From Methanolinea sp. (lineage in GTDB: Archaea > Halobacteriota > Methanomicrobia > Methanomicrobiales > Methanospirillaceae): 64,000 nucleotides of DNA. Numbering within the stretch: the stretch's first letter is position 1; every line of letters starts with the position of its first letter. The notes below the pieces were generated by a model, which searched no databases, had not been told where the DNA came from, and saw only the letters and a program-made list of their open reading frames with translations. The position numbers and the translations under genes were made by a program. Location: the NCBI GenBank assembly GCA_030055515.1, contig JASFYI010000001.1:434001-498000 (forward strand), in the 5' to 3' direction. This document shows, in pieces, positions 42,405 to 58,020 of this stretch.

Positions 42405-42836
42405 TCACGCGGGGCACGGCGAGGGGACCTTCGCGAAGTCCCAGAGGACGTGGTTCCTCGGCTGGCCGATCCCCCGCTCCTCGGGGAGCTCCACCACGGG
42501 TGCAACCCTCTCCCTCGAGGAGAGGACGTCCCGCAGGGACTCGAGGGAGACCGTGAAACGGTCGCCGTTTCCGAGGGTAATGTTGAGGGCCTTTCCCGAG
42601 CGCGAAGGCGCGGCCTTGCCCGCCTCTCCCCCGAGGTACTCCATCCAGTTCTGCTTGACCTTCCACACTGTTACGGTCGCCCCCTGCTCGAGGATCGCCG
42701 AGAGGTCGTCGACGGGAATGCAGAGCCGTGCACCGTGGATGTAGAGGAGGGCGACCTCCCTCGGGACACCCTCGCCGTCGAGGACCCTGTACCCGTTCCT
42801 GCAGAGGTATCCCGCCCGTCTCATGGTATTTGTCAT
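42405..42836 (-). CDS. Hypothetical protein downstream of the nitrogenase-like operon
   Basis: 143 residues, no recognised family. It starts MTNTMRRAGYLCRNGYRVLD, has a hydrophobic strand EVALLYIHGARLCIPVDDL, a central basic/polar part, and ends VLWDFAKVPSPCPA. The pattern of short beta strands suggests a small soluble beta-rich protein. It lies 84 nt downstream of the NifK-like gene on the same strand and could be the last gene of that operon. Composition matches neighbouring real genes. Confidence 0.65.
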   Translation of the reverse strand: MTNTMRRAGYLCRNGYRVLDGEGVPREVALLYIHGARLCIPVDDLSAILEQGATVTVWKVKQNWMEYLGGEAGKAAPSRSGKALNITLGNGDRFTVSLESLRDVLSSRERVAPVVELPEERGIGQPRNHVLWDFAKVPSPCPA

Positions 42837-42920: not shown

Positions 42921-44075
42921 TCACGTTCCCCCTCGGGTACTCCTCGCGGCACGGTCGGCACAGGCGTTCAGCACCGATTCAAAGAGGGAGAGCGTCCCCT
43001 CTATTCCCGCGAGGGGCCTTGGAGTGAGCCTGAATACGCCGCGGAGGGGCGGCGTTACCCCCACGAACGCGGCGTTTGGGCACGCGTGCCTCTCGAACGA
43101 GGACCCTAGGACGAGGTCAGGGGATTCACTCGAGAGGATATCGCGCACCGATGCGTAATTCCTCGCCGGCTCGACGCGGAACCTCCCCGGGACGGGTTCA
43201 TTCCGCGAGCCGACCACGAGGATGTCTGCATCGAGGTACCGCTCGAGCATGGTGCCAATCTCGCGCATGGAGAGACACTGCCCGAAGAGTGCGACGCGGG
43301 GGGGATCGAATCGCCTCAGGAACCGGTCGCAGGCCGCGATCACCTTCTCTTCTGCCTCCGGGATCTCGTCGTCGAGTATCTCCGCGGTAGACTCGCTCTC
43401 CGGGTCGAGCCTCTCGAGGGCACGTGCGAGGTTGGAGAGGCCGAGGATGGTGCCAGCCCCCTCTCCCAGCGGGACGTCGAGGTCGGGATTCGTCGAGACC
43501 CTGAGCCGCGAGAGCGGCCGGCCGTACGCGTAGTGCCGGGTTGCGGGGATCGCGCCCGCCGGGATTCCGCACGCGGAAAGGATCCTCCGTGCCTCCCGGA
43601 GATCTCCCGCCGAGGAGAGGTCGTACGGCGAGAGGCCGACGATGTTCACGCCCTCGCCATCCGCCCGGAGACCGGCGCAGAGCGCCGCGGTGGCCCTCCG
43701 GTACCCTTCCTCGTACCCGCCCGAGAAACCGGGGGTCTCGATGACGCTGAACCTCGGCCTTTCGCCGTACCTCTCCTCGAGGATCTCCCTGATCTCCTCG
43801 CCCGTGACCGCGGGCACGCACGTGCACAGGACGGCAATCATCTCGTACCTGTGGGCGATCGCGTCGATCGTCCTCGCGAGGGCATCGCGGGTCCCAAGGA
43901 CGATGTCCTTTTCGGAGAGGGAGGTGCAGTGCAGGGAGGCGTGGAGCACCGAAGCGGGGTAGTAGTAGCATCCGAGCGAGCCGTGGACGACAACCCCCAC
44001 TCCCCCCGTCTCCGCGAGGGCGGCCGCGGCCCCCGTGAGCGCGCAGGGCCAGAGGGAACCGTCACACACGTGCAC
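42921..44075 (-). CDS. NifK/NifD-like component of an uncharacterised nitrogenase-like reductase
   Basis: 384 residues. Three cysteines sit at positions equivalent to nitrogenase-family cluster ligands: Cys11 ([12 protein letters not shown]), Cys36 (VVHGSLGCYYYP) and Cys86 (VLCTCVPAVTGEEI). TSLSEKDIVLGTRDAL matches the conserved SE.D..FG segment, and the C-terminal RPLAGIEGTLSLFESVLNA matches the terminal signature of D/K proteins. GTG 44075 is chosen because GGAGG lies 10 nt upstream; it overlaps the preceding gene by 14 nt. It is about 100 residues shorter than NifK. The substrate is unknown. Confidence 0.82.
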   Translation of the reverse strand: MHVCDGSLWPCALTGAAAALAETGGVGVVVHGSLGCYYYPASVLHASLHCTSLSEKDIVLGTRDALARTIDAIAHRYEMIAVLCTCVPAVTGEEIREILEERYGERPRFSVIETPGFSGGYEEGYRRATAALCAGLRADGEGVNIVGLSPYDLSSAGDLREARRILSACGIPAGAIPATRHYAYGRPLSRLRVSTNPDLDVPLGEGAGTILGLSNLARALERLDPESESTAEILDDEIPEAEEKVIAACDRFLRRFDPPRVALFGQCLSMREIGTMLERYLDADILVVGSRNEPVPGRFRVEPARNYASVRDILSSESPDLVLGSSFERHACPNAAFVGVTPPLRGVFRLTPRPLAGIEGTLSLFESVLNACADRAARSTRGGT

Positions 44076-45090
44076 GGCAGGCACGCCTCCAGAGCGAGAG
44101 GACCTTCCGTATCCCGCCCGTGCCGACGGGGAAAGGGTCCGGCACGGGGACTTGTCTCCCCGAAGGGTGGATTGCCATCCCTGCAGCCTCCGCGATCTCC
44201 CTGCACGCTCCAAGGGAGTCGGCGTGCCCGGACGCTTCGCCGAACCGTATCCTCTCCCCCCGTAGGTGGCGGAACTCCCAAAAGATCCGTTCCTGCCGGG
44301 CTTCTTCTCCCGCGACGGCGGTCGAGACGTCGAGGGAGAGGATCTCGCCCAGCTCCTCGAGGAAGCATATCGTCCCCGACGGGCCGAGGGGAAACGAGCT
44401 CACGTAAGGTGTTCCGAACTCCGCCTCGAGGTGCTCCCCCACCGCGACCATCGAGGGGTCCCTGAGGATGTTGACCGCGCCCTGCGGGAGGCGCGAGATC
44501 CCCTCGACGCTCGACCTGCAGACAAACCGGGTGCAGACGGGGACACCGATCGCCGAGAGGAGGCGGGAGACCTCGCCGTAGTGGGCCTCCCTCTCGAATT
44601 CGAGCGTTTTTTCGCCGACAATGTTCGCGGAGATTGTCTTTTTTCCCCCGCGCGCGGGCGGAACAAGGGAGAGGAGGGCCCGGACGTGGCCATCGTGGAA
44701 CCCGCCGCCGAGGAAACCCGCCGTGGGGATCGGGACCACGGGAACGCCGTAATCCTCCCCGCAGACGGAATCGACGTCGTCCCCGATCGCGCCGGAAACG
44801 CACGTCTGGAGGACGCAGACGAGGGAACAGTTCCCTGCCGCGGCGACCTCCCTAATGGTTCTTTCGAGGGACTCCTCCCCCCCGAAGATGATGTCGCTCT
44901 CGGAAAGGTCAGTGGAGACGATCGCCGGGAGCACCGGGTCGTCCCTCCCGGCGCAGAGCGCGTGGAAGAGGGAGAAATTGTGGTGCGCGCAGCCGGCGGG
45001 GCCGTGGATGACGGTGACCGCGCCTTCGATCTCCGTCGTCACGGAGAGCGCACCCGTGAGCGTGCACCCTCCCTCAAGGGGTGAATTCAT
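44062..45090 (-). CDS. Short NifD/NifE-like component of an uncharacterised nitrogenase-like reductase
   Basis: 342 residues. Candidate cluster cysteines are Cys9 (GGCTLTGAL), Cys34 ([10 protein letters not shown]) and Cys97 ([17 protein letters not shown]). [17 protein letters not shown] is the typical D/E-family motif. The later [20 protein letters not shown] with FPLGPSG recalls NifE. The protein ends well short of NifD/NifE (usually above 440 residues), so much of the third Rossmann domain is missing or remodelled. The start ATG 45090 lies inside the nifH-like 3' end (17-nt overlap), implying coupled translation. Confidence 0.83.
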
Positions 45091-45889
45091 ACGCGAGGGT
45101 CTCGAGCTCTTCCATCCCGAGCGGGACGGGGATGTCCATCCGCCGGTTCTCGAGGATCCTTGCCGCGAGGTCCCGGTAAATCGCTGCCTGCCTGCTCTCC
45201 GGCGCGAATTCCACGACGGTCTTCCTGTTCAGTTCTGCCTGCTGGACGACCGGGTCGCGGGGGATGAAACCGACGAGCGTGCTCCCTATCCTCCGGGCGA
45301 ACTCCCCGACGAGTTCTTCCTCCCCGCGGACGTCCCTTGCATTGCAGATGACCCCCGCGAGCCTGCAGGTCCCCCTCGTCCGGGAAGAGAGGCGCGCGAT
45401 CGCCTTGCAGATGTTGTTTGCCGCGTAGAGCGACATGAGTTCGCCGGACGTGACGAGGTAGACCTCCTGCGCGTACCCTTCGCGCATCGGCATCGCGAAT
45501 CCGCCGCAGACGACGTCGCCGAGCACGTCGTAGACGACGACGTCCGCGCAGAGTGCGCCGAGCCTCTCGAGGACCTGGAACGTGGCGATGATCCCCCTTC
45601 CCGCGCACCCGACGCCGGGCTCCGGTCCCCCCGCCTCGACGCACTTCACGCCCGCAAAGCCGGTGTAAACGACGTCCTCCCGCGATATCCCGGCATCCCC
45701 CCTCTCCCGAACAAGGTCCATCACGGTGGGGATCAGCCGCCCCTGCACGAGCATCCTCGTGCTGTCCCTCTTGGGATCGCACCCGATCTGCAGGACGTCG
45801 AGGCCCCGGAGGGCGAGTGCCGCGGAAATGTTCGCCGCCGTCGTCGACTTCCCGATACCCCCCTTCCCGTACAGGGCGATCTGTTTCAT
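45074..45889 (-). CDS. NifH-like ATP-dependent reductase (nitrogenase-like; CfbC alternative)
   Basis: 271 residues from ATG 45889 (GTG 45907 also possible). The P-loop is [10 protein letters not shown], the switch region has GCDPKRDST, and the [4Fe-4S] cysteines are in [12 protein letters not shown] and [23 protein letters not shown] and [14 protein letters not shown] resemble true NifH. It is a homodimeric electron donor that hydrolyses ATP to reduce a D/K-type partner. It heads the H-D-K operon. Because no cfbC lies beside cfbD at 56.9 kb, this protein could also be the CfbC that serves F430 synthesis. Confidence 0.9.
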
Positions 45890-55336: not shown

Positions 55337-55738
55337 ATGGGTAAAAAAGGACTTTTACTGGTCGGGCACGGGAGTAAGCTCCCCTACAACAAGGAGCTCG
55401 TGGAGGCAACGGCCCGCCTGATAAGGGAGAGGCGACCGGACTACATCACGAGGTGCGGGTTCATGAATATCGATACCCCGACGATAAAGGACGCCCTCGA
55501 GGAGTTCCGGCACGACGAGATCGATGCCCTCGTGGTGGTCCCGCTCTTCCTCGCGAGGGGGGTGCACATCCTTGAGGATATCCCCGCCGAGCTCGGGCTA
55601 AAGAAAGGCCAATCAAGGGGGGAGTTCGCCCTGAACGGGAAGACCATCCCCCTCGTGTACGCCGAGCCCATCGGGAGCGACCCCCTCCTCGCGGACCTGA
55701 TGATCAGGAACGCCGAGAGGGCGCTCTCGACCCTCTGA
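55337..55738 (+). CDS. cfbA: Sirohydrochlorin nickelochelatase CfbA
   Basis: A 133-residue single-domain CbiX-type chelatase. Motifs: MGKKGLLLVGHGSKLPYN with the metal-binding His, CGFMNIDTPTIKDALEEF, VVVPLFLARGVHILEDIP with the second His, and VYAEPIGSDPLLADLM. It inserts Ni2+ into sirohydrochlorin, the first committed step to coenzyme F430. A TATA-like CTTAAATCGG about 45 nt upstream is the probable promoter for the cfb operon. Confidence 0.94.
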   Translation: MGKKGLLLVGHGSKLPYNKELVEATARLIRERRPDYITRCGFMNIDTPTIKDALEEFRHDEIDALVVVPLFLARGVHILEDIPAELGLKKGQSRGEFALNGKTIPLVYAEPIGSDPLLADLMIRNAERALSTL

Positions 55739-55747
55739 CGTCGTCCC

Positions 55748-56950
55748 ATGCGCGTCCTCGTCCTCGACACCATCCACGGCGGAAAGGAGATCGCGCAAGC
55801 CCTCGCGGAGAGGGGGCATGCCGTCGACATGGTGGACGTCTACAGGGGACAGGAGGGCATAAGTCCCTCCATTGCCCTGCGCGGGGAATACGACCTCGTC
55901 GTCGCACCCGTCCACCTCGACCCGTCGCACCCCCTCCTGCGGGATCTCCACGCCCCCGTCATCTCCCACCACCAGGCCGTGAGGTGGATCCTCGGGAAGG
56001 ATGCCCCGCCCCTGCTCGTCGAGGTGACGGGTGCGCGGGGGAAGACGACGACCGCGTGCGCGCTCGCGCACGTCCTCCGAGGTCCCGGGATCCTCCACAC
56101 GTCCCGCGGGACAGTCCTCCTCCCGGAAGGACAGGTGGTTGGGCGGGGGGGAATCACGCCGGCAGCCCTGATCGGGCCTGCCCTCCTCGCGCGCTCGCAG
56201 GACAGGTGGCTCGTCGCCGAGATCTCGCTAGGGTTCATCGGCCTAGGGAGGCTCGGCATCCTCACGTCTGGAGAGACATACCGGTTTGCCGGCGGCAAGA
56301 GGGACGCGCTCACCGAGAAGCTGAGGTCGGGTGACGCGCTCCCCGCCGTCGTGACGCCACCGGGAACCGGGGAGGCCTGGAACCGTGTCCCCGCGAACAG
56401 GATCGCGACCGCCAGTGGACGAACGTGTCGCTACTCGTGGGAGGGAATAGAGGGGTCGTACGAGAACCCCCTCCTCGGGACCGGGGCCTACTGCGAACCC
56501 CTCCTCCTCGCGACCGCCGCGGCCTGCATCCTCGGGATCGATCCCTCGCCCCTCTCGGATTTTTCTCCCCTCGAGGGGAGGAAAGTCGTCTCCCGGGAAG
56601 GGGATCTCCTCGTGGTGGACGACTCCAACTCCGGGACGTGCGGGAAGACCGCGAGGGACGCGATCTCGATCGCGCGGGCGATAGGCGGGAAGGATGCCCC
56701 CCTCACCCTCGTAATAGGAAAGGAGAGGGGCGCGATCTGCGAGGGGTTCCCCCCCGGCGAGATCGCCTCGGTCGCGCGGGAAGAATCGCCCGACAGGATC
56801 GTCCTCGTCGGTGACTACGACCCGTCCACCGTCGCTCTCCACGCGAGGGGAGGCGTACGGGTGGCAGGGACGCTCGCGGAGGGGAGGGAGATCGCGATGC
56901 AGTCACCGGCCGGGAGCATCGTCGTCCTCGCGGTGAAGACATGGCGGTGA
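55748..56950 (+). CDS. cfbE: Coenzyme F430 synthase CfbE (Mur-ligase-like)
   Basis: 400 residues of the Mur ligase superfamily. It has the ATP-binding VTGARGKTTTACALAHVL, a GGKRDALTEKLRSGDALP segment, and VVDDSNSGTCGKTARDAI near the C-terminal domain. CfbE closes the exocyclic ring of seco-F430 in an ATP-dependent final step to F430. It lies 9 nt after cfbA and overlaps cfbD by 10 nt. Confidence 0.9.
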   Translation: MRVLVLDTIHGGKEIAQALAERGHAVDMVDVYRGQEGISPSIALRGEYDLVVAPVHLDPSHPLLRDLHAPVISHHQAVRWILGKDAPPLLVEVTGARGKTTTACALAHVLRGPGILHTSRGTVLLPEGQVVGRGGITPAALIGPALLARSQDRWLVAEISLGFIGLGRLGILTSGETYRFAGGKRDALTEKLRSGDALPAVVTPPGTGEAWNRVPANRIATASGRTCRYSWEGIEGSYENPLLGTGAYCEPLLLATAAACILGIDPSPLSDFSPLEGRKVVSREGDLLVVDDSNSGTCGKTARDAISIARAIGGKDAPLTLVIGKERGAICEGFPPGEIASVAREESPDRIVLVGDYDPSTVALHARGGVRVAGTLAEGREIAMQSPAGSIVVLAVKTWR

Positions 56951-58020
56951 AGTTCCCAAGGTACGTGCAGCCGAGACCGAGCTCCATCGTTGCCGCGCTC
57001 TACACGGCGCGGGACCTCGGTGTCGATGTCTCGATCCTCCACGGCCCATCGGGCTGCTCTTTCAAGCACGCGAGGCTGCTCGAGGAGGACGGGATGAGGG
57101 TCCTCACGACCTCGCTCTCCGATCAGGAATTCATATTCGGCGGCCAGCAGTCCCTCGAGGCGGTCCTCGTGCACGCCGAGGAGACGTTTGCCCCGCGCCG
57201 GATGGCAGTGATCGGGACGTGCGTCTCCATGATCATCGGCGAGGACCTCGAGGCCGCAATAAGGAACTCGGGTATCTCGACCCCGACGATACCCGTCGAG
57301 ATCCACGCCGGCTTCCCGGAGAACATCTCCGGGGTGATCGCGACGCTCGAGCCTGCCGCGGAGATAGGGTGGATCACCCGCGAGGAGCTCGAGCGGCAGA
57401 AGGCCCTGCTCGCGAAGGCAAACGAGGTCGAGCGGCTGAGGGGTGCGGCATCGAAACCCTACATAGAGCCTTCGAGGGGTGACCTCAAGCACCTCGCCGC
57501 GGAAAGGCTCCTCTCGCTCGCGGGATCCGGGAAGCGGGGGGTTGCCGTCATGAACGCGAAGAAGGAGACTGCCTACATGTTCGCGGACATGCTGCTCGCC
57601 CTCCACGAGTCACGGCCCGGCGCGGACATCACGTACATCGCGAACCTCGAGGAGAGGGGGCTGCCCAAGGTGCGGGAGGATGCCCGCCGGATCAGGACCG
57701 AACTCGAGGAGAGGGGACTTGAACTCACCCCCACCGGCGCGCTCGACGAGTACGGTGCGCTGGGGGATCTCCTCGGGGAGAAGATACGGGCAGTCTCCCC
57801 GGACTTCGCGCTGATCGTCGGGGTCCCGCACGCGATCCCGCCGGAGGCCCTCGAGGGCATCGAGTGCATCTCGGTCACGAACGGCCCCCGGCAGGTCGAG
57901 CCCCTCCGGAAACAGGGTCACCGGTTCGTCGTGGTCGAGATCGACCTCCACCCGCGGACACTCGGCGCGAGGAGGATTGTGGAGAGCGAGTTCGGCGCCG
58001 TGGTAAGGAGCCTCGCATGA
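56941..58020 (+). CDS. cfbD: Ni-sirohydrochlorin a,c-diamide reductive cyclase subunit CfbD
   Basis: A 359-residue nitrogenase-like catalytic subunit. Motifs: YVQPRPSSIVAALYTARDLG, LHGPSGCSFKHARLL, TSLSDQEFIFGGQQSLE, IGTCVSMIIGEDLE and VVEIDLHPRTLGARRIVES. It catalyses the six-electron reduction and cyclisation of the Ni-sirohydrochlorin diamide, using electrons from the NifH-like CfbC. In many methanogens cfbC adjoins cfbD; here it does not. Confidence 0.93.
   Translation: MAVKFPRYVQPRPSSIVAALYTARDLGVDVSILHGPSGCSFKHARLLEEDGMRVLTTSLSDQEFIFGGQQSLEAVLVHAEETFAPRRMAVIGTCVSMIIGEDLEAAIRNSGISTPTIPVEIHAGFPENISGVIATLEPAAEIGWITREELERQKALLAKANEVERLRGAASKPYIEPSRGDLKHLAAERLLSLAGSGKRGVAVMNAKKETAYMFADMLLALHESRPGADITYIANLEERGLPKVREDARRIRTELEERGLELTPTGALDEYGALGDLLGEKIRAVSPDFALIVGVPHAIPPEALEGIECISVTNGPRQVEPLRKQGHRFVVVEIDLHPRTLGARRIVESEFGAVVRSLA

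Follow-up and report, generated by a model that had tools for sequence, protein, structure and literature searches.

D' and K', two overlapping genes in a Methanolinea sp. genome, encode a conserved pair of nitrogenase-like proteins which, by sequence comparison, is a distinct and uncharacterised family of nitrogenase-like reductases. We give roughly even odds (about 0.5) to the reading that this pair is an ATP-driven, cluster-only reductase that shares the Fe protein CfbC with the synthesis of coenzyme F430 and acts on a putative substrate of the tetrapyrrole type. To our knowledge, the nitrogenase-like reactions described so far are few, namely those on N2, protochlorophyllide, chlorophyllide, the F430 precursor, methylthio-alkanes and isethionate. 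A pair that is nearly universal in a major methanogen order and apparently draws on the F430 Fe protein could therefore stand for an undescribed reaction or a cofactor that has escaped notice, and its carriers matter for methane emission. We found no description of the Methanomicrobiales pair in the open-access literature, although an earlier mention is possible in subscription reviews or preprints, which lay outside the search.

The operon lies on the minus strand of the window, the 64-kb stretch of Methanolinea sp. DNA that was analysed. An earlier sequence-only reading had proposed three genes here, and the reading frames confirmed them: an Fe protein of the NifH/CfbC type (45074..45889; 271 aa; PF00142, 2e-106), the NifD/E-like component-1 subunit D' (44062..45090; 342 aa; PF00148, 6e-53) and the NifK/N-like component-1 subunit K' (42921..44075; 384 aa; PF00148, 2e-38). 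K' starts at a GTG codon at 44075 rather than in a longer TTG frame, and most of its aligned orthologues begin at or near the same residue. Both D' and K' belong to the nitrogenase component 1 superfamily (PF00148) by profile score and by fold. The overlaps between the genes are, as reported, 17 nt (cfbC/D') and 14 nt (D'/K'). The strict co-translation deduced from them holds only in part. Similar overlaps are found throughout the order: cfbC is the immediate upstream neighbour of D' and shares an overlap with it in 54 of 54 loci, and D' runs into K' in most of 41. In several Methanoculleus-type genomes, however, K' is not joined to D' and can stand 0.6–2 kb off or on the opposite strand.

No nif genes adjoin the operon, as had been claimed, and the cfbD reported at 56.9 kb is real. 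It is part of a plus-strand cluster at 55.3–58.0 kb that consists of cfbA, the sirohydrochlorin nickelochelatase (55337..55738; NF033198, 154 bits against a cut-off of 120), cfbE, the coenzyme F430 synthase (55748..56950; NF033197, 280 bits against 250), and cfbD, the catalytic subunit of the F430 reductive cyclase (56941..58020; TIGR03282, 504 bits against 268). D' and K' are not themselves CfbD proteins, as they score 46 and 40 bits against the same TIGR03282 cut-off of 268.

The sequence-only reading had presented the three genes as a self-contained system apart from F430 synthesis. This did not survive, because the Fe protein passes the cut-off for CfbC, is the only one in the genome and is kept where D'K' is lacking. 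The protein carries, as read from its sequence, a P-loop and both cluster cysteines; it scores 416 bits with the CfbC model NF033200, over the cut-off of 402, and 382 bits with the NifH model, under the cut-off of 394. It is the only NifH-family protein in the Methanolinea genome, where the second PF00142 match is MinD-like. Likewise, in G042, G048, G065, G074, G078 and other genomes, the operon Fe protein directly upstream of D' is the sole PF00142 match, and G042 also has a CfbD-like match. As the sole Fe protein present, it must, on this sequence evidence, do the work of CfbC in F430 synthesis, which implies electron delivery to CfbD, and the operon arrangement makes it most likely that the same protein also serves D'K'. 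The pair also bears on how an Fe protein acquired several partners within the nitrogenase superfamily.

In a tree of Fe proteins, the Methanomicrobiales sequences form a clade of their own (97/98), apart from both the CfbC of other orders (100/96) and NifH (97/98), so a grouping with the CfbC of other orders was not recovered. This position outside the other CfbC proteins suggests that the ancestral CfbC either gave way to another protein or changed greatly on joining D'K'. The gene order differs too: in other orders cfbC mostly adjoins cfbD, and in Methanomicrobiales it adjoins D'K' and cfbD stands without it.

The most informative loci are those in which the pair is missing. Four Methanospirillum-type genomes and G041 keep the operon-type Fe protein in place and lack D'K' there, and an HMM search of these genomes did not find a D' orthologue at any other site. 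The site is marked by a 143-aa gene (42405..42836 in the window, minus strand; no Pfam or NCBIfam match), which follows K' in several genomes; in loci without D'K', its homologue comes immediately after cfbC. In the Methanospirillum-type loci, flavodiiron and phosphoribulokinase-like genes are followed by the Fe protein and then by this homologue, with 168–183 bp where D'K' would stand; in G041 a short gap separates the Fe protein from the homologue. Because the Fe protein is retained without D'K', the pair is dispensable and separable, whereas the Fe protein is not, and D'K' is not needed for F430 itself. Methanospirillum therefore offers a natural D'K'-free comparison for finding the substrate. 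As a separate observation, the 143-aa protein adjoins the cfbC/D'K' locus in several genera whether or not D'K' is present.

These loci bear on the possibility that D'K' acts within or beside the F430 pathway, as an alternative or accessory nickel-tetrapyrrole reductase that uses the same CfbC, for example to make or repair a variant of F430. Such a role would suit a sole Fe protein of the CfbC type that serves both systems, the location of the cfbA-cfbE-cfbD cluster about 10 kb from D'K', and the position of cfbC beside D'K' in this order rather than beside cfbD as in others. We nevertheless regard it as unlikely, given that D'K' does not cluster with cfb genes and that Methanospirillum and G041 possess CfbC and a CfbD match in the absence of D'K'.

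The distribution of the pair is sharply bounded. BLAST with D' found an orthologue in 137 of 150 Methanomicrobiales genomes (split in G075). Among the 109 genomes with at least 90% completeness and at most 5% contamination, only G041, G146, G020 and G116 lack D', and since G116 and G020 are also without an intact operon-type Fe protein, its absence from these two is probably due to assembly gaps. The phylum-wide sample of 296 genomes yielded no D'K' outside Methanomicrobiales; every match from outside the order scored at most about 120 bits, compared to about 189 bits or more for full-length orthologues within it. A wider scan of 84,980 species returned D' orthologues solely in records labelled as Methanomicrobiales lineages or simply as Euryarchaeota, and the next-best matches, at 28–32% identity, were NifE-like proteins from Firmicutes and other diazotrophs. 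Relatives on plasmids were, among the matches listed, Nif and Nfl proteins only (about 23–34% identity).

Conserved neighbours proved to be of little use for assigning a function. Across the loci compared within the order, cfbC is the sole constant partner of D'K', and the flanks vary between families: one set carries potassium transporter, flavodiiron protein and leucine/CoB-type dehydratase genes, and another a PF02579 protein, aminotransferases and nucleotide synthases. The D'K' operon itself contains no chelatase or tetrapyrrole gene. A functional assignment from the flanking genes was therefore rejected.

The residues of D' and K' are more telling. The cysteines named in the sequence-only reading (D' C9, C34 and C97; K' C11, C36 and C86) are correct and are invariant or nearly so in 30–47 orthologues. 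Those of D' align with NifD C62, C88 and C154, and those of K' with the equivalent residues of NifK, so that the pair keeps an intact cysteine site of the P-cluster type. The shortness of both proteins is a family trait, with orthologues of about 340–360 aa for D' and 365–400 aa for K'. The suspected reduction of the third domain of D' is borne out by its AlphaFold model (pLDDT 92.5), in which only two strands follow the second domain, while the K' model (pLDDT 93.8) keeps all three domains, including a full third one. The D' model matches NifD, NifE and MarD-type chains, several of its top matches being MoFe chains of which only about 380 residues are modelled. For K', the highest TM-scores among the listed matches belong to DPOR B chains and NifK, with the DPOR B chains (0.80–0.81) about level with NifK.

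What D' has lost is equally consistent. At the position of NifD Cys275, the alignment shows an invariant Arg with Asp or Glu as the next residue, and the region of His442 is lacking because this residue belongs to the missing domain. An equivalent of Cys275 is kept in NifE, in the Nfl D subunits examined and in a lone component-1 protein described below. With the Cys275 position replaced and the His442 domain missing, D'K' would, by homology, have no site for FeMo-co or for an L-cluster. An identification with the nitrogenase NifDK was rejected on these two grounds.

NifEN comes into question because, of the single HMMs, that of NifE scores D' highest (108 bits). Both NifDK and NifEN share with D'K' the full set of P-cluster-type cysteines. 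D'K' could in principle be a NifEN-like scaffold that matures or passes on the [8Fe-9S-C] clusters that NifB produces, for instance to supply the activation complex of MCR (PMC12176620), and the genome does contain a NifB without nif structural genes. However, the cysteine that ligates the L-cluster in NifE is Arg-Asp/Glu in D', D' falls outside the NifE clade, and orders that possess MCR but lack D'K' manage without it, as does Methanospirillum. A scaffold of this kind is thus decidedly unlikely. NifEN as such was rejected, given the lost L-cluster cysteine and the placement outside the NifE and NifN clades, and in contrast to both NifDK and NifEN, D' has a reduced domain III and the pair branches outside either clade.

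Whether D' and K' belong inside NifEN or Mar had been posed as the decisive question for phylogeny, and both fall outside the two groups, which upholds a distinct family; in these trees, Mar-like Nfl pairs from two loci (L156 and L158) stood in for MarDK, which was left out, as was the bacterial 'Group VI'. When the tree is rooted on CfbD, D' forms one clade (100/99) and K' another (100/100), and both lie outside NifD/E, NifK/N, Nfl and the lone protein, and apparently outside Bch. The Bch sequences do not group with D' or K', although their branches are long and few.

A sister system emerged when fused proteins were included. These are operons encoding an H-D fusion and a K partner (loci L203–L214), found in Methanospirillum, Methanosarcina-type genomes and some Methanomicrobiales together with BtuCD-type importer genes. 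Fusions of this NifH-NifE-like type with a NifN-like partner, linked to ABC transporters, have been described as a class without a function (PMC3464626). D' is sister to the fused D half (100/99) and K' to the fused K partner with moderate support (92/85), and these mirrored relations suggest that both systems descend from one ancestral pair. The fused D half resembles D' in keeping three cysteines and in lacking equivalents of Cys275 and His442. The fused K retains a single cysteine, with Asp at the first cysteine site and Pro at the third.

The fused system nonetheless differs from D'K', which does not belong to this class: its H and D form one protein, its K has one cysteine, and its operons are scattered and associated with importer and chelatase genes. 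D'K', by contrast, is unfused, has six cysteines in all and is nearly universal in one order. Peripla_BP_2, FecCD and ABC ATPase genes lie upstream in most of the fused loci, CbiK lies downstream in three, and CobN/Mg-chelatase proteins stand beside several; these neighbours were identified by Pfam for a sample of the genes and by the resemblance of their first residues and gene order for the rest. Identity between the two systems is low (22–29% for D' and the fused D, about 17–21% for K' and the fused K), so a common substrate is not assured, and since the fused K lacks two of the three cysteines, its cluster chemistry may differ from that of D'K'.

These neighbours of the sister family and the shared CfbC are the basis for proposing a tetrapyrrole. 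They also modify the initial claim that the operon fits no known relative and that its substrate is probably new: the family is distinct and a new substrate is possible, but with CobN, CbiK and FecCD beside its sister family and CfbC in common, D'K' probably stands nearer to Bch and CfbCD than was first stated.

In DPOR, COR and CfbCD, component 1 holds Fe-S ligands but no FeMo-co site, and electrons pass straight to a bound conjugated substrate (PMC7242693). By analogy, this scheme fits D'K', for which the predicted lack of a FeMo-co or L-cluster-type cofactor would point to the same kind of chemistry. In the scheme we propose, D'K' would form the catalytic part of a two-component reductase of the nitrogenase-like type, driven by ATP and confined to Methanomicrobiales. 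The CfbC-type Fe protein, which would also serve CfbD, would hydrolyse ATP and deliver single low-potential electrons to D'K'. There, the six conserved cysteines would bind Fe-S clusters at the interface of a predicted D'/K' complex, and the electrons would then move to an organic substrate that takes the place of the nitrogenase FeMo-co. The reaction may proceed by stepwise transfer of electrons and protons into a conjugated ring, most likely that of a tetrapyrrole.

Each of the known systems matches this proposal in part. CfbC-CfbD would have its Fe protein in common with D'K', as expected of genomes with a sole Fe protein, and its proteins are of similar size, yet CfbD forms a homodimer and keeps two of the three cysteine positions, whereas D'K' would be a heteromer. 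DPOR and COR (BchLNB and BchXYZ) likewise have a heteromeric component 1 without a ligand of the FeMo-co type, and the fold of DPOR B is matched by K' (TM 0.81), yet they appear to stand on separate branches of the trees. The cluster ligands of DPOR are three cysteines and one Asp, compared to the six cysteines of D'K'. The Asp and Pro sites of the fused K recall this arrangement of three cysteines plus Asp, and the fused system is itself a candidate for the import and processing of tetrapyrroles.

A stronger form of the tetrapyrrole reading can be imagined, in which D'K' would be a new tetrapyrrole reductase that provides nearly all Methanomicrobiales with an undetected reduced Ni or Co tetrapyrrole, running on the Fe protein of F430 synthesis, and in which D'K' and the fused system would together make up a new branch of the nitrogenase superfamily. 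We put this forward tentatively and hold it to be somewhat doubtful as a whole.

Two substrates of other kinds were weighed. Mar and Isr share the HDK gene set (PMC12552129, PMC11423573), as does the D'K' operon, which might then encode a similar C-S bond reductase for scavenging sulfur. This is very unlikely, as D'K' lies outside the Nfl/Mar-type clade in the trees, no radical SAM gene (MarB/IsrB-like) or sulfur gene recurs beside it, the Cys275 kept in the examined Nfl D subunits is not found in D', and IsrD has a single cysteine (PMC11423573) where D' has three. On the same evidence, assignments to Mar and group IV Nfl (clade, neighbours and loss of Cys275) and to the isethionate reductase Isr (one of the three cysteines in IsrD) were rejected. 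Alternatively, D'K' might take the place of CbiJ, the cobalt-precorrin-6A reductase that is missing from the cobamide pathway. CbiJ (PF02571) is indeed absent from all 150 Methanomicrobiales genomes, but none of the 296 genomes of the phylum sample has it either, and many of these lack D'K'; its absence is therefore not specific to D'K' carriers, and we consider this replacement highly improbable. The phylum-wide absence of CbiJ is an observation in its own right, as these genomes include many methanogens expected to make cobamides.

Finally, a lone component-1 protein, here called X, is encoded about 7 kb past the end of the window (L008:6644-8206; C1:504.6-506.2 kb of the genome). Its best matches are DPOR BchB (136 bits) and NifE (126 bits), and it keeps the Cys275 equivalent as well as a Cys-Cys pair. 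The relatives of X group in a single clade (100/100), and in Methanoculleus-type genomes they stand about 2.5 kb from cfbD (L191, L201). No partner subunit is adjacent to X in the Methanolinea genome, and an Fe-protein gene follows it in L200.
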